Assembly (NCBI GenBank): GCA_027078415.1
Contig: JALWYX010000072.1
Span: forward strand, 1-32,171
DNA: 32,171 nt
Direction of reading: 5' to 3'
Source: Thermoanaerobaculia bacterium
Lineage (GTDB): Bacteria; Acidobacteriota; Thermoanaerobaculia; JALWYX01
Positions 774 to 32,171 of the stretch are shown in pieces. The position numbers and the translations under genes are program-made. The notes below the pieces were generated by a model that made no database searches, was not told where the DNA came from, and worked only from the letters and a program-made list of their open reading frames with translations. Each line of letters begins with the position of its first letter. Position 1 is the first letter of the stretch.

Positions 774-3035
774 TTAGGGCAGGTCTAACCAGAGATCGTA
801 ATCACCTGATCCGGAATAAGAGTATACTCTCCATACGTAGTATCCGGCGGAACCGTCGTAACTTACATGCTCACTCGAGGAGGAGGACGTAGAAGAATCC
901 ACAGCCCACCAACCTACAAAAGTCCACTTATAGAGGTACAGATCGAAGTCAGCTGAAGATGGACCTTCAAGCCAGCCTTGATGCGTTCCTGCAGAGGCGT
1001 AATAGTAGGTTCCATCTGGATGATAGTCGTAATCACCATCACCGCTAAGAGTACCGCTGTAGTGATCGCATCCACTGCACGGAGCGTTTCCACCACCGTT
1101 TCCGCCACCATTATCACTAACCATCACTTGATAAGACTGACTATCTGTAGCACCATCATCATCTTGAACCGTTAAGGTAACTGTGTAAGTTCCAGCAGCT
1201 GCATAAGTATGGGACACCGTTACACCACTTCCTGTCGAACCGTCACCGAAATCCCAGCTATAAGAAACTATGCTACCATCACTATCACTGCTCCCACTCG
1301 CATCAAAACTAGCAGTTAAACCGTTGGTAGAGAAGGTAAACGATGCAGTTGGAGGAGTATTAGCAGTTCCTCCACAGCTACCCGGATCGTTCCAACTCCC
1401 AGGAACACCAACAGCATCCCACGCTAGATGAACAGCACGCCACTCACACGAATTGCTACCAAACTGGTTAGCAGCAGCTTGAGCTGTAGCATAACGTAGA
1501 TCTTCATAAGTGGAATTCTGATTAAGCAGCTGGGCGTTAGCCTCATAAAATATTCTTAAAGCTTTCGCTATCCCTATTCCTGGAACGTTAACTGTAGTTT
1601 TACCACGTGGATGCGTACCACCTTCGCTGAGCAAATAGAACGCTAAGTTACCTATACCACTGTTGGTATGTACTCCACAATAATCGTTCTGCTGAGAAGG
1701 AGTACAGTTGTTAGCGTAGTTTCGATCTGGATAATAATCCACACTACGACCATCTCTGGCTGGATCGTTCATATACCTGAGCGCATCACCTATAGAAGGT
1801 TTCGCTATATCATCACCTATAAGCCAGGTTCTTTGAAAAGTTCTAAAGTTAGTAGGATTACCTGCGGAGCTTCCACCTGACTGCTTCCACGCTTCAGCAC
1901 CTGCACCAAATACATCAGACATAGATTCGTTTATAGCACCCGAATCGTTCTGGTAAGCCAGGCCAGAGGTGTGATCGGTAACACCATGTGTCAATTCGTG
2001 GGAGGTAACATCTAACGAATAAGCTAACGGCTCAAAGTACTGGCCACCATCACCGAAAACCATCTGCTTATAACTACCACCCAAGTAAGCAGCATTATCA
2101 CCTGTACAGCTCCCAAAAAATCCGGCCTGGAATTGGATATGAACAGTGGAAACCAAAGTCAAGCCATTTCCATCTAGCGAATCCCTTCCTAAAAAGTGGT
2201 AGTAAAACCAATAGGTATGACCAGTATTGTTGTACGCAGCCATGGCAACCTGATCGCTACTTGAGCCACCCTCTTCAAACATCAGAGTTCCCGGTAAAAC
2301 AGAAGACACATTAAAACCACTTAAACACTCATTATTCCCGTCATAAATCTTACGATACAAACCGGTGTATATAAGAGGATAAGAAGTTATCCTTCTTCCA
2401 GTGCGAGCGTCTACAAAAACTCTCTGATAGTCAAATATACCACCATTACGGACAGCAACATCAGCTCTATAAGCCAAAACAGGCTCGTGACCATTAGCAG
2501 CATAGATTACAAGTTCCGGTCCCTCCACAACGTTATATTCAAAAGATGCTTCCCTCAGAACATTATCACCGTACATATGACGTAACGTTCTTTTAAAAAT
2601 CGATTCAAAAGAAGCAGCACCAGAAGTATCAAGATTTAACCCTCTTACAACAGACCCTAAAATAGCTCGCACACTACCACGATCAGAAACTTGCAAAGTA
2701 ACCTCACCACCAACAACCGGCAAACCGTTGTAATACTGACGCATCTTGAAAGCTCTTCTTCCTTCATAAGAAGCAACTCTACGCTCGAACTTAATTTCAT
2801 CGTTCATACCTAATCCTAAACTAGAACGAAGCTGCGAATTAAAAAGCTCCTCTGCAGCACGCTCACTAACAACACTCAACCTCTCACTAGCACCCAAATA
2901 AAACTTGCTAACCCTTCCTTCCTCCTTCACCCGCATATTCGAGAAACCGTAAAAATTTAGACTGCTCACATTGGCAGCAAGCAACGAAAACGGCAACAAA
3001 CCACCTATAACCCAGCTAAATTTCGCCAATCTCAT
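774..3035 (-). CDS. Secreted thermolysin-family (M4) metalloprotease with PKD and PPC-like domains
   Basis: A zinc endopeptidase predicted to act outside the cell, 753 residues. Residues 1-21 form a signal peptide (hydrophobic WVIGGLLPFSLLAA). A propeptide of FTP/PepSY type follows (about 40-220). The catalytic domain (about 225-550) has HELTH (346-350: zinc ligands H346 and H350, catalytic E347), third ligand E370 in GAINES, and H456 in GVHTNSG, matching the thermolysin transition-state histidine. A PKD domain follows (about 560-642, SYSWDFGDGS, GTYTVTLTV), then a Gly/Asn linker and a C-terminal region like PPC (about 653-753, DFDLYLY, GDYDLWLDL). I start at ATG 3035 because GGAGGT lies 9 bases upstream; the in-frame TTG at 3056 lies upstream of that site. 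It has its own candidate promoter and terminator, so it is probably monocistronic. Confidence 0.95.
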   Translation of the reverse strand: MRLAKFSWVIGGLLPFSLLAANVSSLNFYGFSNMRVKEEGRVSKFYLGASERLSVVSERAAEELFNSQLRSSLGLGMNDEIKFERRVASYEGRRAFKMRQYYNGLPVVGGEVTLQVSDRGSVRAILGSVVRGLNLDTSGAASFESIFKRTLRHMYGDNVLREASFEYNVVEGPELVIYAANGHEPVLAYRADVAVRNGGIFDYQRVFVDARTGRRITSYPLIYTGLYRKIYDGNNECLSGFNVSSVLPGTLMFEEGGSSSDQVAMAAYNNTGHTYWFYYHFLGRDSLDGNGLTLVSTVHIQFQAGFFGSCTGDNAAYLGGSYKQMVFGDGGQYFEPLAYSLDVTSHELTHGVTDHTSGLAYQNDSGAINESMSDVFGAGAEAWKQSGGSSAGNPTNFRTFQRTWLIGDDIAKPSIGDALRYMNDPARDGRSVDYYPDRNYANNCTPSQQNDYCGVHTNSGIGNLAFYLLSEGGTHPRGKTTVNVPGIGIAKALRIFYEANAQLLNQNSTYEDLRYATAQAAANQFGSNSCEWRAVHLAWDAVGVPGSWNDPGSCGGTANTPPTASFTFSTNGLTASFDASGSSDSDGSIVSYSWDFGDGSTGSGVTVSHTYAAAGTYTVTLTVQDDDGATDSQSYQVMVSDNGGGNGGGNAPCSGCDHYSGTLSGDGDYDYHPDGTYYYASAGTHQGWLEGPSSADFDLYLYKWTFVGWWAVDSSTSSSSSEHVSYDGSAGYYVWRVYSYSGSGDYDLWLDLP

Positions 3036-3114
3036 CTCTATCTTACCTCCTACCAAAAACTTAATTTTCTATACAAAAACTTCTATCACCACAAAACGCA
3101 TAAAGCATGCCAAA

Positions 3115-14948: not shown

Positions 14949-16889
14949 CTAAATTTTTACAACTCGTGGAGTTATAAATATAAGAAGCTCCTTGTTCTCA
15001 TCGCTAATACGCTTATTTTTAAATATTGCCCCTATAAAGGGTATATTGCTCAACCCTGGAACCCTATCTTGTCCATCTTCAGTTGTAATCTCATAGATAC
15101 CACCTATAACTGTAGTTCCTCCATCCTTCACTATAACCCTCGTTTGAGCTTCTCTAGTCCTTATAGGAGCATTTTGAGCACCAGCTACCGCAAAGGCCAA
15201 TTGAGGTTCCCTTTTAGAAACCCTTATATCCATTAAAATCGTTCCCTCAGCTGTTACATGAGGAGTAACATCCAACCTTAGAGTAGCATTTACAAACTGG
15301 GTTGTAACAGTGTTATTAGCAACTGTCTGAATAGGTATCTGCAATCCAGATTGTATATAAGCTGGATAGTTGTTAACAGTAGTAACCCGAGGAGCTGAAA
15401 GTATATTTATAAGACCATCATTTTCTGCCGCCTGAAGAAACACATCCAACTGAAAAGTATTAAGTACATTACCCAAAGTTATACCTAAAACACCACTCTG
15501 GCCTCCAGTTAACAAATTGACTCCACCAGATATATCGTAATTGTTGGGAAATATAAGCCCTGTGGTATTACCGTGCTGAATATCTGCAAGGGCCCTTGTG
15601 TTCCAAGAAATACCAAGAGTTCTACTAAACCTCTTGGTAGTCTCTACTATCCTAGCTTCTATAAGAATTTGAGGCTCAGGAACATCCAACTGCTCAACAA
15701 CAGCTAGAACAGTATCTACAAACTCAGGGAGCTCTTTGATAATAAGGGTATTGGTCCTCTCATCTACTATAACAGAACCTCGCTCACTAAGAATAGAGGT
15801 CTCTCCTGCCTGCAAAACACTCGCAATCTCCGAAGCACTTGCATAGCTAACTCTCTTTAAAACGGTCTTTAGAGGAGCGGTCAATATAGCTGCAGCCCGT
15901 GCTTCAGCCTCAGCTGCGGCCTCGGCAGCCAATCTATCTCTGGTAGCTATACGCATAACGTTACCTTCCATCTCATACCCTAAATCGTTTAACTTCAATA
16001 TGATCTCCAAAGCTTGATCCCAAGGAACCTGGTTTAGCTCAACGGTAACCTCACCTTCAACGTCGGGATGCACAACTATATTAAGACCACTTATCTTAGC
16101 AAAAGTACGCAAAACTTCCTTTATATCCGCTTCTCTTAAACTAAGAGAAATAGGCTCACCAAAATACTTCTTTCCCTCCCGTGTAACGTCCTGAGCTTCA
16201 AAAGATTCCGCACCACTTGTAGCAGCTTCCACTTGCTTTTTTAAAACATCTAAAGCTTTCTGCGGCTCAGGAGCCATCTCGAAAGCTTCAACCGAAGTAA
16301 GAGGAGACTCTGACGAAAAACGTTGCTCCTCTTTTCTATCTGTCTCCTGCAGCTCTACCTCCACACCTACAATATCTTCTCTCTCCTCCACAGTAGCATT
16401 TACACTAACCGTCTCCTTAACACTAGTCACATCGTCTCTATTCAACGACTTTAAGCTAACCTTCAGCAGCCATCCATCTTCAACAAACAGAGGTTCCACA
16501 GGAACCTTCAAATCAACCACCATCCTAACCCTAGAATTTTCTTCTACATGAGAACCAAACCTTACTTTTTCAAGTAAACCGCTGTTTACAACTTCTTCTG
16601 TTCTCGGCAAAGCAAAATCAACATTATCAAAATCGACAACCAACCTTAGAGGATCATCCACAAAAAACGCTTTGTAACCAAGCTTACCGTCAGCTCTAAC
16701 AACCACAACCACGTTGTCATCTGAAACTTTAATTACATAAAAATCCTCTATTTTACTAGCCTTTTTCCCTTCTTTAGCAACATTCTTTACAAAAGGAGCA
16801 TCTTTAGTCCACTCAACAGAAGAAAGTTGCATACTCCCAAAGAGAGCAACTCCCAGCAGAGCCAACATATTTCTACTTATTTTCAGCAT
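14949..16889 (-). CDS. pilQ: Type IV pilus secretin PilQ
   Basis: Forms the outer-membrane pore through which the type IV pilus passes. Of 646 residues, 1-25 are a signal peptide; one AMIN peptidoglycan-binding domain follows (about 50-148, DNVVVVVRADGKLGYKAFFV, LRLVVDFDN). A charged linker leads to the STN domain (about 245-315, VEGEVTVELNQVPWDQALE), one secretin N1 domain (about 345-405, DERTNTLIIKELPE) and the C-terminal secretin barrel (QILIEARIVETTK through VPGLSNIPFIGAIFKNK). Many PilQ proteins have two AMIN domains; only one is seen. GGAGGTG lies just before the ATG. It is fifth in pilMNOPQ. Confidence 0.96.
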   Translation of the reverse strand: MLKISRNMLALLGVALFGSMQLSSVEWTKDAPFVKNVAKEGKKASKIEDFYVIKVSDDNVVVVVRADGKLGYKAFFVDDPLRLVVDFDNVDFALPRTEEVVNSGLLEKVRFGSHVEENSRVRMVVDLKVPVEPLFVEDGWLLKVSLKSLNRDDVTSVKETVSVNATVEEREDIVGVEVELQETDRKEEQRFSSESPLTSVEAFEMAPEPQKALDVLKKQVEAATSGAESFEAQDVTREGKKYFGEPISLSLREADIKEVLRTFAKISGLNIVVHPDVEGEVTVELNQVPWDQALEIILKLNDLGYEMEGNVMRIATRDRLAAEAAAEAEARAAAILTAPLKTVLKRVSYASASEIASVLQAGETSILSERGSVIVDERTNTLIIKELPEFVDTVLAVVEQLDVPEPQILIEARIVETTKRFSRTLGISWNTRALADIQHGNTTGLIFPNNYDISGGVNLLTGGQSGVLGITLGNVLNTFQLDVFLQAAENDGLINILSAPRVTTVNNYPAYIQSGLQIPIQTVANNTVTTQFVNATLRLDVTPHVTAEGTILMDIRVSKREPQLAFAVAGAQNAPIRTREAQTRVIVKDGGTTVIGGIYEITTEDGQDRVPGLSNIPFIGAIFKNKRISDENKELLIFITPRVVKI

Positions 16890-16901
16890 CCCTACACCTC
16901 C

Positions 16902-17441
16902 TCATTCCTCATTCTTACCTCGATTTAAAGCTTTTCTAATTATCCTAAAAGGCTTAAGAGAACCTGGCTGCTCTATACGCTGCTTAAAGACAACCTCATT
17001 CTTGCTTATCTCTACCACCTCTCCATCGAACAACTTGTCTCCGATCCTGATTATATAGCTTTTTTCACCACCTGCAACCTCTATATACGCAACCCACTGA
17101 CCTCCCCAATTAAAAATACCCTTTATATCCACTTCATTAATATATACCCCCGGCAACCCTTTAGGCCTAATCCTCGCAACCTGCTCAGGAGCAGGTCTTA
17201 GAAGGGAGACAAAAGGATCTCTTCTACCTGCAGGATCGTAACTTACTCCACCACCAGCATATATTTCGTCTTTAGATTCCAATATTTTCTCGATATCTTT
17301 CAACTCCTCTGAAGGAACTTCTCCCTCCTGCACCACCGACTCTTTAACATCCATATCCTCATCTGCACTCTCTTCCTGAGCAAAGATCGCCACACCACTC
17401 AGCATCCAAAGACAGACAGAGGCCACAAAAACCTTATACAT
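16902..17441 (-). CDS. pilP: Type IV pilus assembly protein PilP
   Basis: Links the inner-membrane PilNO complex to the PilQ secretin in the periplasm. The 179-residue protein has the conserved RRDPFVSLL motif (about 53-61) and the C-terminal beta domain (GIFNWGGQWVAYIEV, IIRIGDKLFDGEVVEI). The N terminus is a plain signal peptide ending in VAIFA before QEES; no lipobox cysteine is present, whereas PilP of Neisseria and Pseudomonas is lipidated. I start at ATG 17441 because GGAGG lies 6 bases upstream; the in-frame TTG at 17447 touches that site. Confidence 0.92.
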   Translation of the reverse strand: MYKVFVASVCLWMLSGVAIFAQEESADEDMDVKESVVQEGEVPSEELKDIEKILESKDEIYAGGGVSYDPAGRRDPFVSLLRPAPEQVARIRPKGLPGVYINEVDIKGIFNWGGQWVAYIEVAGGEKSYIIRIGDKLFDGEVVEISKNEVVFKQRIEQPGSLKPFRIIRKALNRGKNEE

Positions 17442-17452
17442 AATCAACCTCC

Positions 17453-18040
17453 TTACAACTCCTCAACACCCTCTTCACCTTCTTCCATAGGTACATACCT
17501 GAAAGTCTTCGCTCTAAAAGTAGCAGAAATAGTATATCCTCCTTGGTTAAACGCCCCAATTCTCAACTCATCAACGTTAATTATTCTTGGGAAACGACTC
17601 AACTTATCGAAGAAAACAGCCAAATTATGGTAGGTGCCCTGCATAGCTATCTCCATAGGAATCTCCTTATAAAAATCGTGTGATATCTCATCGCGCACAT
17701 CTAGCCTTAAAATATGCAAATTACCCTGAGTTGCTATAGCCCGCAAGTCACGAAGTATAAACTCCATGTTTATCTCAGCAGGCATAATCTCTATAAGTTT
17801 CGCTAACTCTTTTTCCAAAGTCTTCAACCTTTCCTCAACAGCGGGCAACTCAGCCTTTATAGCTCTACCCTTCTCTACCTCTTCCTGGAGCTTAGCTACC
17901 TCTTTTTCTTTAGCTTCAATTACCCTTTTTTGCTCCTTTATCTTAAATACGTACAACCCACCTACTATAAAACCTCCCAAAACTACACCCAACACAGCCC
18001 CCTGCCACGGCTGCTCTCTTATATCATCCATCAGTCCCAT
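17453..18040 (-). CDS. pilO: Type IV pilus assembly protein PilO
   Basis: Inner-membrane protein that dimerises with PilN to form the alignment complex of the pilus machine. Of 195 residues, about 16-32 form a single membrane helix (GAVLGVVLGGFIVGGLYVF), 35-85 a coiled coil (VIEAKEKEVAKLQEEVEKG), and the rest a ferredoxin-like periplasmic domain with DFYKEIPMEIAMQGTYHNLA and FFDKLSRFPRIINVDEL, which are typical of PilO. GGAGGTG lies upstream of the ATG. Third in pilMNOPQ; 35 bases separate it from pilN. Confidence 0.94.
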   Translation of the reverse strand: MGLMDDIREQPWQGAVLGVVLGGFIVGGLYVFKIKEQKRVIEAKEKEVAKLQEEVEKGRAIKAELPAVEERLKTLEKELAKLIEIMPAEINMEFILRDLRAIATQGNLHILRLDVRDEISHDFYKEIPMEIAMQGTYHNLAVFFDKLSRFPRIINVDELRIGAFNQGGYTISATFRAKTFRYVPMEEGEEGVEEL

Positions 18041-18075
18041 CTTCTAACACCTCCCTTCCTTCCACAACACAACCT

Positions 18076-18702
18076 CTATAGTGCTTCCTCTCCCATTTCC
18101 TCTTCTTCACCTTCACCACCAGGATACTTAATTTTAAATGGAACCTTCATAACGAAATTATAGACCCTCTCACCTCCACTAAACACTAAGCTGTTTAGTT
18201 GCGGCTCCATAAATTCTATAGACTCAGATAACTCACCCTCTTTTGTAACGTCCTTCAAATTGTCTATAAAATTTGCCACCGCATTCTCATTAAACGCCTT
18301 ACCTCTTAACTCTATAGTACTCCCTACAACAGACATGCCATCCAACCACAAGTGATCAGGAACGGCTCTACTAATAGCATCCATAATCTTCACAGGCCCT
18401 ACCTGCTTACGCTTAAGCTCCTTTATGATAGAAATCTTGCGCTTAAGCTCCTCACTCTTTTTACGCAACTCTTCACTCTTTTTAATAAAAGGCTCTAACG
18501 CAGCCTTCTCCTCTTCTAACTCCGCTATCTTCGCATCCAGCTCCTCAATAGTCGACGAATTAACGTACCACCATCCAACCCCAACAAGCAAACCTATAAG
18601 AGCAAACACAAAAAGCAATACCTCGCCAACACTAATCCCTCCTCTTCCTCTAACACTAGGAGTTGTACGAGGACCTTCACGTAGCAAATTAACTCTAATC
18701 AT
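18076..18702 (-). CDS. pilN: Type IV pilus assembly protein PilN
   Basis: Bitopic inner-membrane partner of PilO whose cytoplasmic tail docks on PilM. The N terminus MIRVNLLRE (1-9) matches the PilM-binding INLLP-type motif. A membrane helix spans about 28-49 (EVLLFVFALIGLLVGVGWWY), then a coiled coil (ELDAKIAELEEEKAALE, KSEELRKKSEELKRKI) and a periplasmic domain. The 208-residue length is normal. The start codon overlaps the pilM stop by one base (TAATG), with GGAGGGG as ribosome binding site. The C-terminal tail is unusually acidic (GGEGEEEEMGEEAL). Confidence 0.94.
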   Translation of the reverse strand: MIRVNLLREGPRTTPSVRGRGGISVGEVLLFVFALIGLLVGVGWWYVNSSTIEELDAKIAELEEEKAALEPFIKKSEELRKKSEELKRKISIIKELKRKQVGPVKIMDAISRAVPDHLWLDGMSVVGSTIELRGKAFNENAVANFIDNLKDVTKEGELSESIEFMEPQLNSLVFSGGERVYNFVMKVPFKIKYPGGEGEEEEMGEEAL

Positions 18703-19754
18703 TATTCCCCTCCCTTCCTTAAAGCTAAACCAACAGCCACAGCAAAACTCGGAGCTTCACGAGTCACCTCTTCACTTTCACTACCTTCCTTTACATACAC
18801 GTTCCTAAAAGGATTCATAACGCTCACCTGTGCACCCAACTTCTTACCCAAAACATCAGGCAACTCGGGCGTTAACGCACCCCCACCAGAAAGAACAATT
18901 TCATCTATTGGACCTTCACCAGTTGTAGTTGCAAAAAAATCGAAAGTCTTTTTGAGCTCATTAGCCAAATCGTTACCAACCTTACTAAATACTCTCTTGG
19001 CATCCTTGATGGTTCTGCCACCTACATTCTCCCCCAACTTTAAAGCCTCAGCCTGTTCATAAGTCATATTAAATTCTCTTTGCAAAGCTTCAGTGAACAT
19101 CCTTCCTCCTACAGAAATATCACGCCAAAAAACAGTCTCTCCTCTCGAAATAATGTTAACATTTGTAACCGAAGCACCTATATTTACCAACGCAATAACT
19201 TTCATTGGATCTATCCCGTAGTTGTATTCGTAACAATTCTGTACCGCAAAACAATCTATATCAACAACACTAACCTGTTTACCAGCCCTCGCAACCACCG
19301 AAACGTAGTCTGTTATCTTATCTTGCTTTACAGCTATAAGAAGAACATCAACATCACCCACAGGCTCCGCACCTTCTGGGACAAGCGGAATATAATCGAG
19401 TTTGACCTCGCTTATATCAAAAGGAATAAATTGCTCAGCTTCCCACCTAATCGCCTCATCCAAATCTTGAGGAGAATTAACTTTAACAGCTATCTTTTTA
19501 ATAATAACTGAATGCCCCGAAACAGAAATAGCAAAGTTAGAGTTTTTTATTCTCTTTTCACCTATTAATTTTCTAACAGCCTCTACAACCATAGAAGAAT
19601 CCATTATCGCACCATCTACTATAACCTCCGGAGACAGCACCTCCTTACCTACAGCAAGAAGGTGATAACCGTCCTTCTTCTCTTTCAATTCGACAACTTT
19701 AACAGCGTAACTTCCTATGTCACATCCTACAAGTTCCCTTCTTCCAAAAAACAC
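18702..19754 (-). CDS. pilM: Type IV pilus assembly protein PilM
   Basis: Actin-like cytoplasmic ATPase-fold protein that recruits PilN and organises the inner-membrane part of the pilus machine. Actin-fold phosphate and nucleotide loops are visible: LVGCDIGSYAVKVVEL (8-23), ALVNIGASVTNVNII (about 188-202) and IVLSGGGALTPELPDVLGKK (about 287-306). Length 350 is normal. The start is GTG preceded by GGGAGGGGGGG. It is the first gene of the pilMNOPQ operon and has a good promoter at 19792-19821. Confidence 0.95.
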   Translation of the reverse strand: MFFGRRELVGCDIGSYAVKVVELKEKKDGYHLLAVGKEVLSPEVIVDGAIMDSSMVVEAVRKLIGEKRIKNSNFAISVSGHSVIIKKIAVKVNSPQDLDEAIRWEAEQFIPFDISEVKLDYIPLVPEGAEPVGDVDVLLIAVKQDKITDYVSVVARAGKQVSVVDIDCFAVQNCYEYNYGIDPMKVIALVNIGASVTNVNIISRGETVFWRDISVGGRMFTEALQREFNMTYEQAEALKLGENVGGRTIKDAKRVFSKVGNDLANELKKTFDFFATTTGEGPIDEIVLSGGGALTPELPDVLGKKLGAQVSVMNPFRNVYVKEGSESEEVTREAPSFAVAVGLALRKGGE

Positions 19755-23389: not shown

Positions 23390-24409
23390 CTATTCTATGT
23401 AAACCTTTACCGGAGAAGAAAATTCCCCTTTATTACCTTTTCTATCCACAAGAGCTACCTTATAGAAAAAAGTCATACCTCTTCCAAGCCCTTCATCTAC
23501 AAAGTAGTTTTTTCTATCCACATTAGCTATCTTATTCCAAACTTCATCAACCGCGGACTTTCTATATACTATTGCACTCTCCACGTCTTTATCGTATGTT
23601 AACCAACTCACCTTTACACGTCCCTCACCCAAATAGATAGCTTTTACTTGTGGAGGAGAAGGTGGGAAAATATCTTTGTATATTATACGATCAGTGACAC
23701 TAAGATCGCTTTCCACAAAAAAAGAAACCCCTTCCCGTTCCTTTTCTATAGATCTTGAAACTGCGTAATAATAGGAACCTCCATCCACCACATCTCTATC
23801 TAAAAAAAAGTTGTCTTTGCTAACTACCTCAATCTCTTTTCCAAATCTAGTTGTAGTACTTTTATATATACGTATTTTTCCCTCATCTTCCCTTACCCAC
23901 TCTAGATAGACACCATCTTTTCTTATCTCCCAAAAGAGAGAAACAATTTTCGGCGGAGGTTCAACGATATAAACTCTTACAATTTCCGATAAATCTGACC
24001 ATTCTTTCCCTGCTTTAACACGTACAGCTAAAAATAGCGTACCTTCTACCCATTCTCTTTCAATCTTTAAAGGAACAAAGAGTTTTTCCCCTATTATTAA
24101 CTTTGATATCTCATCTCCTTCGATCTCTTTAGATTGACCTGACTGTAGGATATCCACTCTCGAGCCTGATACAAAATCCCTAATAAACTTCCAAACAACT
24201 TCTATGCTACTTAACTTTTTAATAGGTAAACCTGAGATGGTGGTTTGGGGGAAATCAAAAATTATTATAACGTTCCATCCTCTCTGAAATAGCTCCAACT
24301 TTTCAATTTTTTGAGGTTTCAAACTCAAAGGAGGCATAGGAGGAGCTTTTTTCCCACACGTATAAAATACACTAAAGCATATAAATGGAAGTATCTTCCG
24401 CAGTAACAA
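23390..24409 (-). CDS. Lipoprotein with CGKKAPP N terminus and fibronectin type III-like domains
   Basis: A predicted lipoprotein of about 339 residues. A hydrophobic signal (LLLRKILPFICFSVFYTC) ends in a Cys followed by GKKAPPMPPL, the pattern found at the N terminus of small LptM/YifL-type lipoproteins. Three FN3-like sandwiches follow, the last two clear (PPPKIVSLFWEIRKDGVYLEW and PPSPPQVKAIYLGEGRVKVSW, with SYYYAVS and TFFYKVALVD). I propose TTG 24409 as start, three bases after GGAGA; ATG 24433 or 24442 would lengthen the signal with poorer spacing. The lipobox (YTC) is not canonical. It overlaps hslU and abuts dapF. Confidence 0.78.
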   Translation of the reverse strand: MLLRKILPFICFSVFYTCGKKAPPMPPLSLKPQKIEKLELFQRGWNVIIIFDFPQTTISGLPIKKLSSIEVVWKFIRDFVSGSRVDILQSGQSKEIEGDEISKLIIGEKLFVPLKIEREWVEGTLFLAVRVKAGKEWSDLSEIVRVYIVEPPPKIVSLFWEIRKDGVYLEWVREDEGKIRIYKSTTTRFGKEIEVVSKDNFFLDRDVVDGGSYYYAVSRSIEKEREGVSFFVESDLSVTDRIIYKDIFPPSPPQVKAIYLGEGRVKVSWLTYDKDVESAIVYRKSAVDEVWNKIANVDRKNYFVDEGLGRGMTFFYKVALVDRKGNKGEFSSPVKVYIE

Positions 24410-25664
24410 ACTTCTCCAACGAGTATCTAACATGATTTTCATCTATTACAACTTTTACACCTTTCATTTCAGGAGCAGCAAAAAAAAGCTCCTCACATAT
24501 TTTCTCCATAACCGTAAGCAAACGACGAGCTCCTATATCTTCACTTTTCTTATTTATTTCATAAGCATACTCGGCTATTAATTCTATAGCTCCCTTTGTA
24601 AATTCCAGTTCTACTTCTTCTGTAGCCATAAGAGCCTTGTACTGCTTTACCAGAGAAGCTTTAGGTTCAAGCAAAATTCGGACAAAGTCTTCCTTTCTAA
24701 GAGATTGCAACTCCACCCGTATAGGAAACCTACCCTGCAATTCCGGGATCAGGTCTGAAGGTTTAGCTACATGGAAAGCACCAGCTGCTATAAACAATAT
24801 ATGGTCCGTTTTAACTGGACCGTATTTGGTAGCTACCGTGGTACCTTCTACTATAGGTAAAAGATCTCTTTGGACGCCTTCACGAGAAACGTCAGGACCA
24901 ATGCCACTTTCCCTACCAGCAATTTTATCTATCTCGTCTATAAAAATAATTCCTTCTTCTTGAGCCCTTTTCAACGCGGTTTGAACAATCTTTTGACGAT
25001 CTATCATCTTATCCGCTTCTTCTCTCTCTAAAATTTCTAACGCATCTTTAACCTTAAAAGTGGAACTTCTTTTTCTTCCACCTCCAAAAATGCCAGGAAA
25101 CAAATCCTTAAAATTTATACCTATCTCTTCTATACCCTGAGGAGTTATCATTTCAAAGCTAGGAAAAGAGTGTGTTTCTACTTCTATATCAACTTCCTCT
25201 TCATCTAAAAAGCCATTCCTAAGCCTCTCTAGAAGAAGATCCTCCGATACACCCATACGTATACCCAATTGCCTTACAATTTCTCTCTCAGCTCTAGAAC
25301 GCGCTGCTTGTCTAACTCTAGTTCTCTCCTCCTCTCTAACCATCGAAACAGCTGCTTCTACAAGGTCACGCACCATAGATTCTACGTTCCTACCAACGTA
25401 TCCGACTTCGGTAAATTTACTGGCTTCTATTTTTACAAATGGAGCATTCGCAAGTTTAGCCAATCGTCGCCCTATTTCCGTTTTACCAACGCCTGTAGGA
25501 CCTATAAAAAGAATATTTCTAGGTATTATCTCAGCAGCTACCTCAGGAGGCAACTGTTTACGCCTCCACCTATTTCTCAAAGCAACAGCTACAGCTTTTT
25601 TAGCTTCTACTTGCCCTATAATATGTTTGTCAAGTTCTTTAACTATCTCCCGAGGAGTTAACAT
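24372..25664 (-). CDS. hslU: ATP-dependent protease ATPase subunit HslU
   Basis: AAA+ unfoldase that feeds substrates into the HslV peptidase in the cytoplasm. Walker A is GPTGVGKT (55-62), the pore loop is GYVG (88-91), Walker B is GIIFIDEIDKIA, sensor 2 lies in IGARRL, and the C terminus AEDTSIYML matches the tail that docks into HslV. The intermediate I domain is present (about 110-235), giving 430 residues, normal for the family. The ATG abuts the hslV stop (TGAATG) with GGAGGTGATGAG inside hslV. The 3' end overlaps the FN3 lipoprotein gene. Confidence 0.97.
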   Translation of the reverse strand: MLTPREIVKELDKHIIGQVEAKKAVAVALRNRWRRKQLPPEVAAEIIPRNILFIGPTGVGKTEIGRRLAKLANAPFVKIEASKFTEVGYVGRNVESMVRDLVEAAVSMVREEERTRVRQAARSRAEREIVRQLGIRMGVSEDLLLERLRNGFLDEEEVDIEVETHSFPSFEMITPQGIEEIGINFKDLFPGIFGGGRKRSSTFKVKDALEILEREEADKMIDRQKIVQTALKRAQEEGIIFIDEIDKIAGRESGIGPDVSREGVQRDLLPIVEGTTVATKYGPVKTDHILFIAAGAFHVAKPSDLIPELQGRFPIRVELQSLRKEDFVRILLEPKASLVKQYKALMATEEVELEFTKGAIELIAEYAYEINKKSEDIGARRLLTVMEKICEELFFAAPEMKGVKVVIDENHVRYSLEKFVTAEDTSIYML

Positions 25665-26222
25665 TCACTCATCACCTCCTAAGCATTCTACGGTTATATT
25701 GCTGTTAGTATAAATACAGATAGTTGCTGCTATCTCAAGAGCCCTCCTTGCTATATCTTGCACCTTCATCGTTGTGTAACGAGTCAAAGCTTTTGCCGCC
25801 GCATAAGCGTAAGGACCTCCAGAACCTATAGCAATTATCTCATATCCCTCCTCTTTATCTGGCGTTATCAAATCTCCTCTACCTGATACTAGAAAACTAT
25901 CCTCAACATCGGCAACAACCATAAAAGTTTCAAGATGTCTTAACACTTTATCGGTTCTCCATTCTTTAGCTAGCTCAACAACAGCCCTACGTAAACTCCC
26001 ACCAAACTCTGCCAACTTATCCTCTAACCTTGCAACTAAAGCCAAACTATCTGCACCAACACCGGCAAAACCAACTATAACTGGGTATTTGCCAAGACGC
26101 ATAACTTTTCTTGTACCCTGCTTAATAGCAATATCTCCCAAAGTTATCTGTCCGTCAGCTGCAATAGATACAACTTTCCCCCTTCTTACCATAACAACAG
26201 TAGTACCGCGAATTGTACTCAT
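25665..26222 (-). CDS. hslV: ATP-dependent protease peptidase subunit HslV
   Basis: Proteasome-like N-terminal threonine peptidase. The sequence starts MSTIRGTTVVMVRRG; processing after G6 would expose the catalytic T7, as in HslV proteins with a short pro-sequence. ADGQITLG, IVGFAGVGADSL, IAIGSGGPYAYAAAKAL and the C-terminal EIAATICIYTNSNITVECL are typical. Length 185 is normal. It starts 35 bases from a divergent RuBisCO-like gene, and no ribosome binding site is visible before the ATG; a palindrome containing -10-like boxes lies in between, so a very short or absent leader is likely. Confidence 0.96.
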   Translation of the reverse strand: MSTIRGTTVVMVRRGKVVSIAADGQITLGDIAIKQGTRKVMRLGKYPVIVGFAGVGADSLALVARLEDKLAEFGGSLRRAVVELAKEWRTDKVLRHLETFMVVADVEDSFLVSGRGDLITPDKEEGYEIIAIGSGGPYAYAAAKALTRYTTMKVQDIARRALEIAATICIYTNSNITVECLGGDE

Positions 26223-26231
26223 AAGGGAATT

Positions 26232-26247
26232 TTATACTAAAGTATAA
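26232..26247. promoter_or_regulatory. Palindrome with overlapping -10-like boxes between hslV and the RuBisCO-like gene
   Basis: TTATACT (26232-26238), AA, AGTATAA (26241-26247) form a near-perfect dyad centred in the 35-base divergent spacer. On the plus strand TATAAT (26243-26248) ends 9 bases before the ATG of the RuBisCO-like gene; on the minus strand TATACT and TATAAA lie 9-24 bases before the hslV ATG. No good -35 hexamer lies at the expected distance on either strand. It may be a shared promoter core or an operator. Confidence 0.45.
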
Positions 26248-26257
26248 TCTGAAAAAC

Positions 26258-27322
26258 ATGATAAAAATAAAGTACAAGATCAAAGGAGCCCTAAAGATAT
26301 CAACAGCGGAGCAGCTAGCTATTGAACAAAGCGTAGAAGTTCCCAATGAACTTATAACTCCAGATATAAAAACTAAAATAGTAGGAAAAATAACAGAAAT
26401 ATACAAAAATAGGGTAACAATCGAATACCCCACAAATCACCTATCAAAATCTCCTACTGCACTACTAAACCTATTAACAGGAAACTACTACATGTTTAAA
26501 AACGTAGCTATCGAAAAGATATATATACCTCATAGGATATACGAAGAATTTGGATTGGGACCCAAAAGTTCGTTAAAAACAATCAGAAAGCACACTGGCA
26601 ATATAGAGTTCCCGATTCTAGCAACAGCTATAAAACCGGTAGGTTCTCCTCTAAACACCCTTGTAAAGCTAGCAAAGAATTTGGCAAAAGGAGGGATAGA
26701 GATAATAAAAGATGATCACAACCTATTCGATCCCCCAACCTCACCGTTTAAAACACGAATACAAAAAATCCATCAAAATGTTCAAGAAATTAGCGGAGGT
26801 AAAACTTTATATTTCCCCCATATATGGGGAACAGGAAAAGAGCTTATCGATAAATTAGATTATCTAGAAAAAATAGGAGTAAAAGGTATATTAGTAGCAC
26901 CTTTTTTGATCGGACTACCAACAACTCTATGGATAAGCAAAAATTACAATTTCTTTATAATGGCACATCCTTCGTTCTCCGGATGGTGTATGTGGAATGC
27001 AGGACTAAAACCCGAAGTTGTATGGGGACAACTGTTTCCTTTATACGGCGCAGATGCTGTGATATTCCCTCACTTCAAGGGACGATTTCCTATTAGCAGA
27101 ACGGCTATAAAAAAAATAGTAGCTGAACTACGCTCTCATCCAAACCCTTCCGTTCCCGTACCAGCAGGAGGTATGAAAATAGCATCCTTAGACTCTTCCC
27201 TTACTATCTACGGTAAAGATAGCATACTCCTTATAGGAGGAGATCTTCTAAAAAATAACCAAACTTTATATGCAAGAAAATTCCGTGAAATAACAACAAA
27301 GATATTCTCTACTTTACTTTAA
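26258..27322 (+). CDS. RuBisCO-like protein (form IV)
   Basis: A 354-residue homologue of the RuBisCO large subunit. Matching segments are AEQLAIEQSVEVP (17-29), LLTGNYYMFKNVAIEKIYIP (72-91), ATAIKPVG (122-129, K126), GGIEIIKDDHNL (145-156), AHPSFSG (236-242), YGADAVIFPHFKGRFPIS (263-280), PVPAGGM (300-306) and LLIGGDLL (324-331). The carbamylation-type lysine K151 with D153 is kept, but the loop 6 lysine is absent (GQLF, Q258), the Ser of SGG is Ala, and H154 replaces Glu, so carboxylation is excluded. The nearest known role would be a tautomerase- or isomerase-type reaction in sulfur or sugar-phosphate metabolism, unproven. ATG without ribosome binding site; 3' end overlaps ybgF by 9 bases. 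Confidence 0.9.
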   Translation: MIKIKYKIKGALKISTAEQLAIEQSVEVPNELITPDIKTKIVGKITEIYKNRVTIEYPTNHLSKSPTALLNLLTGNYYMFKNVAIEKIYIPHRIYEEFGLGPKSSLKTIRKHTGNIEFPILATAIKPVGSPLNTLVKLAKNLAKGGIEIIKDDHNLFDPPTSPFKTRIQKIHQNVQEISGGKTLYFPHIWGTGKELIDKLDYLEKIGVKGILVAPFLIGLPTTLWISKNYNFFIMAHPSFSGWCMWNAGLKPEVVWGQLFPLYGADAVIFPHFKGRFPISRTAIKKIVAELRSHPNPSVPVPAGGMKIASLDSSLTIYGKDSILLIGGDLLKNNQTLYARKFREITTKIFSTLL

Positions 27323-28048
27323 TCTATCTCTAGCTATAAATGCAGCTCCGCTATTCGGATACTTTTCTACTACTTTCCTGTAAAAATATTTAGCCTCGTC
27401 CATTTTGCCCATATCGCGCAAACAATCTCCTTTTTTAAGAAGAATATCTGGAACCTTATTACCGTTAGGATAGAGTTCAACAGCCTTATCAAAAAAAGAA
27501 ATAGCCTTAGAGTATTGCTTAAGATTGCAGTATGCCGAACCTAACCAAAAATAAGCATTGTCTACCAGGTTATGCTTAGGATACCTAGAAACAAAATCCT
27601 CGAAAACCTCTATAGCAGCTTTTAACTCTCCTCGTCTATAAAAGAGATAACCTTTATCGTACAGAGCATTAGCATTTCTTTCTTGGTAATCTCCACGCTC
27701 TTCTATACCCCGCAAACCGATATTTTCACTTTCTATTGCCCTATTATTTACAGAAGAACCCCCAACTTCTTTGTTAGATCCTGAAAGATCCACACTTATA
27801 TCTTTATCTATTCTTTGTATATCGTCTCTAACATTTGCCTTTGGTTTCTCTTTTACATTGTTTAGCTCTTTTTTATCCTTATAAGAAAAAGCATCACTTT
27901 TAACCATCAAATTCTTAAGTTCCACTTCTAGTACCGTTATACGCTTTTCCAATTCCACTATTTTATTCTTTAGAGTATCCATATCGGAGCTCATGTAACC
28001 GCTGCAATTAACAAAAATAAAGCAAACCACAAGCAAGTATCTGTACAC
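27314..28048 (-). CDS. cpoB: Tol-Pal system protein YbgF/CpoB-like
   Basis: A 244-residue periplasmic protein. The N-terminal signal (YLLVVCFIFVNC) carries a Cys but a poor lipobox (VNC). A coiled coil spans about 22-48 (DMDTLKNKIVELEKRITVLE). A variable Asn/Ser-rich linker follows. Three TPR repeats form the C terminus from about residue 130 (ALYDKGYLFYRRGELKAAIE, AYFWLGSAYCNLKQYSKAI, ILLKKGDCLRDMGKMDEAKY). This is the CpoB layout: trimerising coil plus TPR. In Proteobacteria it coordinates Tol-Pal with septal peptidoglycan synthesis. tol genes are not in the window. GTG start with GGAGG 7 bases upstream, right after bamD. Confidence 0.85.
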   Translation of the reverse strand: MYRYLLVVCFIFVNCSGYMSSDMDTLKNKIVELEKRITVLEVELKNLMVKSDAFSYKDKKELNNVKEKPKANVRDDIQRIDKDISVDLSGSNKEVGGSSVNNRAIESENIGLRGIEERGDYQERNANALYDKGYLFYRRGELKAAIEVFEDFVSRYPKHNLVDNAYFWLGSAYCNLKQYSKAISFFDKAVELYPNGNKVPDILLKKGDCLRDMGKMDEAKYFYRKVVEKYPNSGAAFIARDRLK

Positions 28049-31495: not shown

Positions 31496-32171
31496 TTACC
31501 CAAAACATTCTTCAAGAAGCTCTTTTGCTTTGCTATAACCCCAATCATTCCAATAGATAGCTTCATCCACAGTTTTTACTTCCACACCCTCATGGCAATC
31601 TACTGTACTTTCAACTAAATCAAATATTTTGTCGAATCGCAACCTTCTTTGCAAAAAGTTTTCTACAGCACACTCGTTAGCTCCGTTAAAGACAGCAGGA
31701 TAACTACCACCCTTTTTTGTCACTTCCTTAGCTAAGGCTATAGGACGCCTGAAAAAACTCGGTATAGAATAAAACTCCAGTTTGCTCTCAGCAAGCTCGT
31801 AACTTACTTCAATTGGAGGTTCCAAACAGTGGGGATGTACCAAAGCGGCAGTTATAGGTATAACCATATCGTGGTAGTAAGAATTGAAAAATGAAACGCC
31901 TATGCTAGTTTCTATCACAGCGTGAACAAGAGATTGAGGGTGTACTACAGCATCTAAAAGGTTTATATCCAAGTTGAACAGATATTTTGCTTCTATAATC
32001 TCTAACGCTTTATTCATAAAAGTAGCCGAATCGATAGTTATCTTCCTGCCCATTCTCCAAACAGGATGCTTAAGAGCGTCTTCCGGTGTAACCTTTGATA
32101 AGTTTTCTTCTTTCAATTTCCAAAAAGGTCCTCCAGAAGCAGTTATTAATACTTTTTTTATTGCTTTAACA
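31496..32171 (-). CDS. dxr: 1-deoxy-D-xylulose 5-phosphate reductoisomerase, C-terminal part (runs off the window)
   Basis: First committed enzyme of the MEP isoprenoid pathway, forming MEP from DXP with NADPH. The coding frame is open to the right edge and begins there with VKAIKKVLITASGGPFW, the ASGGPF active-site loop. Further motifs are ITIDSATFMNKALEIIEA, VVHPQSLVHAVIE, MVIPITAALVHP and FNGANECAVENF. The N-terminal NADPH-binding domain lies outside the window. It precedes rseP by 12 bases. The TTG near 32116 is internal and not a start. Confidence 0.95.
   Translation of the reverse strand, partial: VKAIKKVLITASGGPFWKLKEENLSKVTPEDALKHPVWRMGRKITIDSATFMNKALEIIEAKYLFNLDINLLDAVVHPQSLVHAVIETSIGVSFFNSYYHDMVIPITAALVHPHCLEPPIEVSYELAESKLEFYSIPSFFRRPIALAKEVTKKGGSYPAVFNGANECAVENFLQRRLRFDKIFDLVESTVDCHEGVEVKTVDEAIYWNDWGYSKAKELLEECFG

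Follow-up and report, generated by a model that had tools for sequence, protein, structure and literature searches.

In Rhodopseudomonas palustris, the RuBisCO-like protein (RLP) named RLP1 (RPA2169), of the DeepYkr clade, is reported to turn 5-methylthioribulose-1-phosphate into 1-methylthioxylulose-5-phosphate and 1-methylthioribulose-5-phosphate, in the proportion 3:1 and with a kcat of 1.3 per s; in the parts of that paper used here, the cupin RPA2170 is a methylsulfurylase, and the activity of RLP2 on 5-methylthioribulose-1-phosphate is given as not detectable (PMC5893883). The MTA-isoprenoid shunt of Rhodospirillum rubrum, named for 5'-methylthioadenosine (MTA), is described in parts of two papers (PMC5893883, PMC6302742). 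Marshall et al. 2023, in the sections used here, count 181 species out of 4,400 that lack only Dxs, five of these with an RLP and a cupin, and offer the shunt as a hypothetical substitute for Dxs: the general idea that the shunt replaces DXS is already in print, as a hypothesis (PMC10663253).

This connection of sulfur salvage with isoprenoids has been described in purple bacteria; the gene studied here probably carries it into Acidobacteriota, to a small lineage that has diverged strongly. Judging from its sequence and from the genes that accompany it, we think it likely that it encodes a divergent DeepYkr RLP, a 5-methylthioribulose-1-phosphate 1,3-isomerase of the MTA-isoprenoid shunt. The clade of the protein is settled and its kind is ordinary; its divergence and its setting, a genome in which no dxs was found, are unusual.

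The gene and its surroundings

The window, that is, the whole stretch of 32,171 nucleotides that was analysed, has a G+C content of 39% and belongs to a genome of 1.96 Mb in 80 contigs, 97% complete. The 59 related genomes listed are all of the same class, and none is of the same genus, family or order. The RLP gene (Table 1) is convergent with an ORF on the reverse strand, 27314-28048, presumably of the tetratricopeptide type; on its other side lie two genes that we take to be hslV and hslU. Elsewhere in the window, positions 14949-19754 hold a type IV pilus assembly cluster, with what we take to be pilQ to pilM type genes, and positions 774-3056 presumably encode a secreted thermolysin-like (M4) metalloprotease with a PKD-type domain.

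Table 1. Features of the window, with residue numbers of the RLP in brackets
Feature	Position	Strand	Remark
RLP ORF	26258-27322	+	354 aa; DeepYkr-type; predicted 5-methylthioribulose-1-phosphate 1,3-isomerase
hslV (protease subunit)	25665-26222	-	divergent neighbour of RLP
hslU (ATPase subunit)	24372-25664	-	
KPV (K126-P127-V128)	26633-26641	+	K126, P127 in 95/95 family rows
KDDH (151-154)	26708-26719	+	metal/carbamate-type Lys, Asp, Asp; His replaces Glu of RuBisCO, MtnW
H237-P238	26966-26971	+	invariant, 95/95 rows
GQLF (257-260)	27026-27037	+	in helix 252-262, outside loop 6
KGRF (274-277)	27077-27088	+	true loop 6; G275, R276 in 95/95 rows
PAGG (302-305)	27161-27172	+	phosphate-binding type motif
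Gap between divergent hslV and RLP start codons	26223-26257	.	35 bp
Perfect 7-2-7 palindrome TTATACT-AA-AGTATAA	26232-26247	.	
dxr (DXP reductoisomerase), part	31496-32116	-	gene runs past window; would use shunt product

The initial annotation had called the product a RuBisCO-like protein of form IV, and this is borne out: it is the sole match of its genome to the RuBisCO family PF00016 (38.6 bits, for a cut-off of 30.1), and its AlphaFold2 model, built on a 51-row alignment, has the RuBisCO fold with a pLDDT of 95.1 and a pTM of 0.93. The start, which had been put at 26223, is only the first base of the gap after hslV, but the ORF itself is real, with its start codon at 26258.

The gap had also been said to hold a near-perfect dyad, in a start region shared with hslVU. 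A dyad is indeed present, and is exact rather than near-perfect, but it is weak as evidence: the window contains 19 perfect dyads with arms of 7 and loops of 0 to 4, where a first-order Markov model gives a mean of 12.6, and the chance of finding one in a given 35 nucleotides of local composition is 0.7%. The palindrome could be two opposed -10 elements, TATAAT at 26243-26248 (+) and TATACT at 26246-26241 (-); a promoter scan of 26100-26400 returned 0 sites, against 1.0 in shuffles. As a meaningful link, the proximity of hslVU finds no support: hslV is near the RLP gene in none of the 80 loci of relatives, the best 80 of at least 590, as far as their contigs reach. Since no promoter-like pair was found, such dyads are not rare in the window, and the hslV-RLP neighbourhood is seen nowhere else among these loci, we assign the palindrome no function. 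An operator common to the pathway genes was considered and rejected, with no copy of the dyad at two mismatches or fewer in 18 kb around mtnA, 16 kb around mtnP and 12.6 kb around the speE-cupin pair. One copy with two mismatches lies inside an ORF of another locus (L139, at 3349).

Clade and active site

The structure 3qfw, an RLP of R. palustris, comes first both in a sequence search of the PDB (E 4e-49; the next hits, MtnW structures, are at 1e-23 and weaker) and in a Foldseek search with the model (E 1.9e-33); in the VIA-align list, RuBisCO folds all lie within about 3 Z units, a range that does not separate the clades. We infer that 3qfw is RLP1 (RPA2169), since it is 72% identical to the RLP of R. 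infernalis, which has a cupin directly downstream, and since 2qyg, the second RLP structure from R. palustris, bears the title rlp2.

A phylogeny of the form IV clades, one of the checks suggested at the outset, places the protein in DeepYkr with RLP1. In a tree of 49 rows, the window RLP and 40 others, including 3qfw and the R. infernalis protein, stand apart from MtnW and the other RLPs with a support of 100/99; a quick tree of 108 rows yields the same placement with weaker support (83). The branch of the window RLP is very long in both trees, at 1.78-1.87 changes per column, and is the longest of the tree. Identity with 3qfw is about 32-34%, and the closest relatives among the matches listed are at most 38% identical. 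A profile of 65 cupin-linked RLPs gives the window RLP 330 bits, 110 bits below the lowest cupin-linked member, and 12 outgroup rows 124-189 bits.

A scan of the named genome collection found at least 590 relatives in many phyla, of which the best 80 were kept as contig loci; its search pattern demands KDDH, so that the presence of this motif is circular there. In a survey of the phylum, made without any motif pattern, 46 of 396 genomes match the RLP; a single group of 18, at 32-36% identity, has KDDH in 17 members and KDDQ in one, and the matches outside this group are at 8e-20 or weaker. The trees and residue counts exclude loci L091, L092, L105 and L112, which are the same contigs as L018, L015, L009 and L013; alignment A1 holds 16 of the 18 phylum loci, L013 and L017 being left out. 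One locus with RLP and cupin, L054, is probably mislabelled: it is titled as a 'Klebsiella pneumoniae' MAG, and its partner in the tree is an environmental gammaproteobacterium.

The active site can be read against 95 family rows. Identical in all of them are K126, P127, G129, K151, D152, D153, P187, H237, P238, G257, G275, R276, G304 and G305, and H154 is the same in 94. The carbamylation-type lysine is retained, as K151, and KDDH does replace KDDE, as the initial annotation had it; this is normal for the DeepYkr clade. The reading of GQLF as the substitute for the loop 6 GK motif was misplaced: GQLF belongs to helix alpha5, where residue 258, Q in this protein, varies among relatives (K, R, Q, T, D or E). 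In the AlphaFold2 model, the true loop 6 is PHFKGRFPIS, residues 271-280, which joins strand 267-271 to helix 281-293. Its KGR aligns with the VGK of RuBisCO-type proteins, with the invariant R276 at the place of the loop 6 lysine. In what we take to be RuBisCO numbering, K126 faces K175, V128 faces K177, and H237-P238 faces H294-R295.

The active-site set of the clade is complete: K126, K151-DDH, H237-P, G275-R-F, A/G303-GG and L325.GG. A direct comparison of active-site residues, also suggested at the outset, finds KP, KDDH, HP, GRF, AGG and LIGG common to the window RLP and 3qfw, and KDDE in MtnW. Over the 45 columns that are at least 95% conserved in the other 94 rows, the window RLP keeps 40 (89%), where the lowest of the others keep 91%; the five near-invariant residues that changed are S78Y, G105S, G108T, D148E and R261P.

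Two other families were tried and rejected. RuBisCO of forms I-III fails on R276, V128 and H154, which stand at the places of the loop 6 Lys, the second Lys of KPK and the Glu of KDDE, and its models reach 73 of the 497 bits and 68 of the 438 bits of their cut-offs. The decarboxylase OiaX (3-oxo-isoapionate-4-phosphate decarboxylase) of the apionate pathway shares membership of the RLP superfamily, its model NF042437 giving 49 bits for a cut-off of 700. Form IV Photo was compared pairwise, the tree having no Photo row: 3qfw, with the E value given above, is much nearer to the window RLP than 1ykw (1e-11) or 2qyg (1e-9).

Partner genes and the proposed reaction

The third suggested check, a search for methionine-salvage genes elsewhere in the genome, finds them scattered: mtnA on contig C60 (391 bits, cut-off 279), the MTA phosphorylase gene mtnP on C3 (311 bits, cut-off 275) and the partner cupin on C43 (E 5e-25, 38%), with the RLP gene on C72. 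Lying on four different contigs, these genes offer no proof of an operon. Of 23 residues that hardly vary among 58 RLP-linked cupins, this cupin keeps 22, including HxHxH, a distant His and a Cys. Its gene overlaps two others: the tail end of a spermidine-synthase-like gene and the beginning of one that is presumably xseA-like. The former is just below both cut-offs (238 of 260 bits, 212 of 250 bits), and this neighbourhood fits the shunt because spermidine synthase makes MTA. For O-acetylhomoserine sulfhydrylase, the genome returned only homologues below the cut-off, whose best models, methionine gamma-lyase and cystathionine gamma-lyase, are also below theirs.

A cupin adjoining the RLP gene is a common trait of the clade, not a defining one, and the two are apart in this genome. 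Of the loci of the best 80 of at least 590 relatives, 58 have a cupin gene no more than 300 bp from the RLP gene; of the 22 without it, three have less than 600 bp of contig downstream. The phylum loci, with a reach of no more than about 1.5 kb, show it in 9 of 18 cases. The gene mtnA adjoins the RLP gene in loci L080 and L116. In an Acidobacteria MAG (L060:2146-4579), a speE-like gene, the RLP gene and the cupin gene follow directly in a row, and their adjacency ties the shunt to MTA from polyamine synthesis. The residues of the protein agree with a cupin partner: six positions tell cupin-linked RLPs from transketolase-linked ones, and the window RLP has the transketolase-type residue at none of the six; its P252 and F260 are of the cupin type.

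From these genes, each step of the shunt can be given a candidate. MTA would be released by spermidine synthase and phosphorolysed by MtnP to 5-methylthioribose-1-phosphate, which MtnA would convert to 5-methylthioribulose-1-phosphate. The RLP, with a metal on its carbamylation-type K151, D153 and H154, would then move protons through enediol forms to give 1-methylthioxylulose-5-phosphate. The cupin would strip the methylthio group, which would leave 1-deoxyxylulose-5-phosphate (DXP) for Dxr and the MEP pathway and, once the thiol is exchanged, release methanethiol. The family, fold and residues, and a candidate gene for each step, were found here; the reaction, the metal, the carbamate and the flow between steps we infer.

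The likeness to R. palustris RLP1 covers the fold, the six motifs and a genome with mtnP, mtnA and the cupin gene. The cupin is the next gene in Rhodopseudomonas, whereas here it lies on another contig behind the spermidine-synthase-like gene. With the R. rubrum shunt (cited to Erb et al. 2012), the shared elements are MtnP, MtnA, RLP and cupin, with the MEP pathway downstream; a difference is that no dxs was found in the genome of the window, whereas R. infernalis (G447), the neighbour of R. palustris in the tree, has one.

The initial annotation held the reaction to be open. The protein groups with RLP1 and not with MtnW, has the same motifs, and comes from a genome with mtnP, mtnA and the cupin. 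To judge by its sequence, it belongs to a characterised clade with the same active site and a known reaction, the very outcome that the initial annotation had named as its refutation. A rival reading gives the protein a place in ordinary methionine salvage, as a 2,3-diketo-5-methylthiopentyl-1-phosphate enolase of the MtnW (YkrW) type. MtnW shares with the window RLP the RuBisCO fold, the carbamylation-type Lys and a substrate from the same pathway; mtnA and mtnP are common to both pathways, and the best NCBIfam models for the RLP are those of MtnW, with 122 and 93 bits. These scores are far below the cut-offs of 409 and 514, and the matches do not discriminate, since the RLP1-type protein of R. 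infernalis gives the same pattern (161 and 119 bits). MtnW forms a separate clade, constraining the window RLP to the two MtnW structures is rejected (p-AU 0.0077, at a cost of 20 log units), and the motif is KDDH, not KDDE: we regard the enolase as very unlikely.

A change of substrate is possible at an identity of at most 38% and on so long a branch, and the DeepYkr clade is not bound to a single pathway, the transketolase-linked branch also lying inside it. A diverged DeepYkr RLP could act mainly on 5-deoxyribulose-1-phosphate, derived from 5'-deoxyadenosine, a by-product of radical SAM enzymes, and yield DXP in one step, without the cupin. The chemistry would be the same, with H replacing SCH3, and an MTA-type phosphorylase and isomerase can feed such a substrate, according to the part used here of a paper on 5-deoxyribose salvage (PMC6079011). 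However, the genome retains the partner cupin, conserved residues included, which argues for a methylthio substrate, and our literature search found no mention of such an RLP activity; this substrate seems improbable, if somewhat less so than the enolase. That the gene is a decaying relic, no longer working, might be suspected from the longest branch of the tree and the five changed near-invariant residues, but its frame is open over the full length, all the catalytic-type residues checked are present, the model reaches a pLDDT of 95, and mtnA, mtnP and the cupin gene are kept, which leaves decay as unlikely as the enolase. The isomerase of the MTA-isoprenoid shunt is the reading we prefer.

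DXP supply and a sibling branch

In the genome of the window, no match to dxs exceeds the model cut-off of 466 bits. The highest score, 94 bits, belongs to a fused pyruvate-dehydrogenase-type E1, and a match of 674 aa is a transketolase. The genome does have dxr, ispG (C27, 375 bits) and, on C70, an HMG-CoA-reductase-like gene. The dxr gene (C72:31526-32822; window 31496-32171 and on) is interrupted by a short N run that has a repeated stretch on either side; the break is a gap of the scaffold, not a simple frameshift. HMG-CoA reductase was not accepted as proof of a mevalonate pathway, since genomes G345, G337 and G375 have it together with dxs, the dxs of G375 being two halves on two contigs.

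The searches covered 39 of the 80 contig loci for dxs, 30 genomes for dxr, 25 for HMG-CoA reductase and 20 for ispG. Among 57 genome entries with a KDDH-type RLP, 42 have a dxs over the cut-off; of the other 15, two have it split over two contigs and G437 repeats G108, leaving 12 genomes. The combination of dxr without dxs occurs in the genome of the window and in G062, G070, G096, G108, G362, G427 and G455. Among 13 genomes of the same class without a DeepYkr-type RLP, 5 are also without dxs, and three of them (G002, G003 and G007, at least 98% complete) keep dxr and ispG with neither a dxs nor an RLP match. Consequently, the RLP does not in general account for the absence of dxs: some other replacement of DXS exists in the class. 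In G455, a Gemmatimonadota genome, the RLP, cupin and mtnA genes lie side by side (L116:5995-8641), dxr and ispG are present, and searches for dxs and HMG-CoA reductase found neither; it is the cleanest candidate here for a shunt that replaces DXS.

The genome of the window is one more candidate of the kind listed by Marshall et al., with the caveat of its HMG-CoA-reductase gene. In the strongest form of the idea, the RLP and the cupin would be the only makers of DXP here: a RuBisCO-family protein would replace DXS as the obligatory entry to isoprenoids, and to the cofactors derived from DXP. The spermidine synthase of the cupin operon would supply its MTA, perhaps with 5'-deoxyadenosine as a further source. 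Such a role is supported by the lack of a dxs over the cut-off while dxr and ispG are present, and by the like situation of G455; it is weakened by an assembly that is 97% complete in 80 contigs, by the HMG-CoA-reductase gene, and by G002, G003 and G007, which lack dxs without any RLP. We think it rather doubtful. The dxs gap makes this genome a usable test case for MTA-derived DXP replacing DXS.

Within the clade, a sibling branch pairs the RLP with a transketolase-like thiamine enzyme, split or fused, near the RLP gene in 7 of the 80 contig loci (the best 80 of at least 590); none of the 7 has a cupin. The subclade, in which no cupin adjoins the RLP gene, has a support of 99/93 in the 49-row tree (8 rows) and of 98 in the 108-row tree (16 rows). 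The window RLP is without the marker residues of this branch, and its genome has no split transketolase among the matches to the dxs model. The thiamine enzyme would presumably cleave 1-methylthioxylulose-5-phosphate into glyceraldehyde-3-phosphate and a two-carbon unit bearing the methylthio group, which could then lose methanethiol. Our literature search found no published account of such a branch, and this type of operon, RLP with split transketolase, looks like an undescribed branch of methionine salvage. Among its loci are L062:1620-7113, L090:3970-7897, L088:1-3094, L106:3947-7041 and L143:4544-7684, and the same arrangement is seen in genomes G070, G096, G108 and G160. The order in L062 is mtnK (464 bits, cut-off 275), mtnA, the N half of the transketolase, its C half and the RLP gene; in L090, an MTA-phosphorylase-like gene follows the RLP gene.
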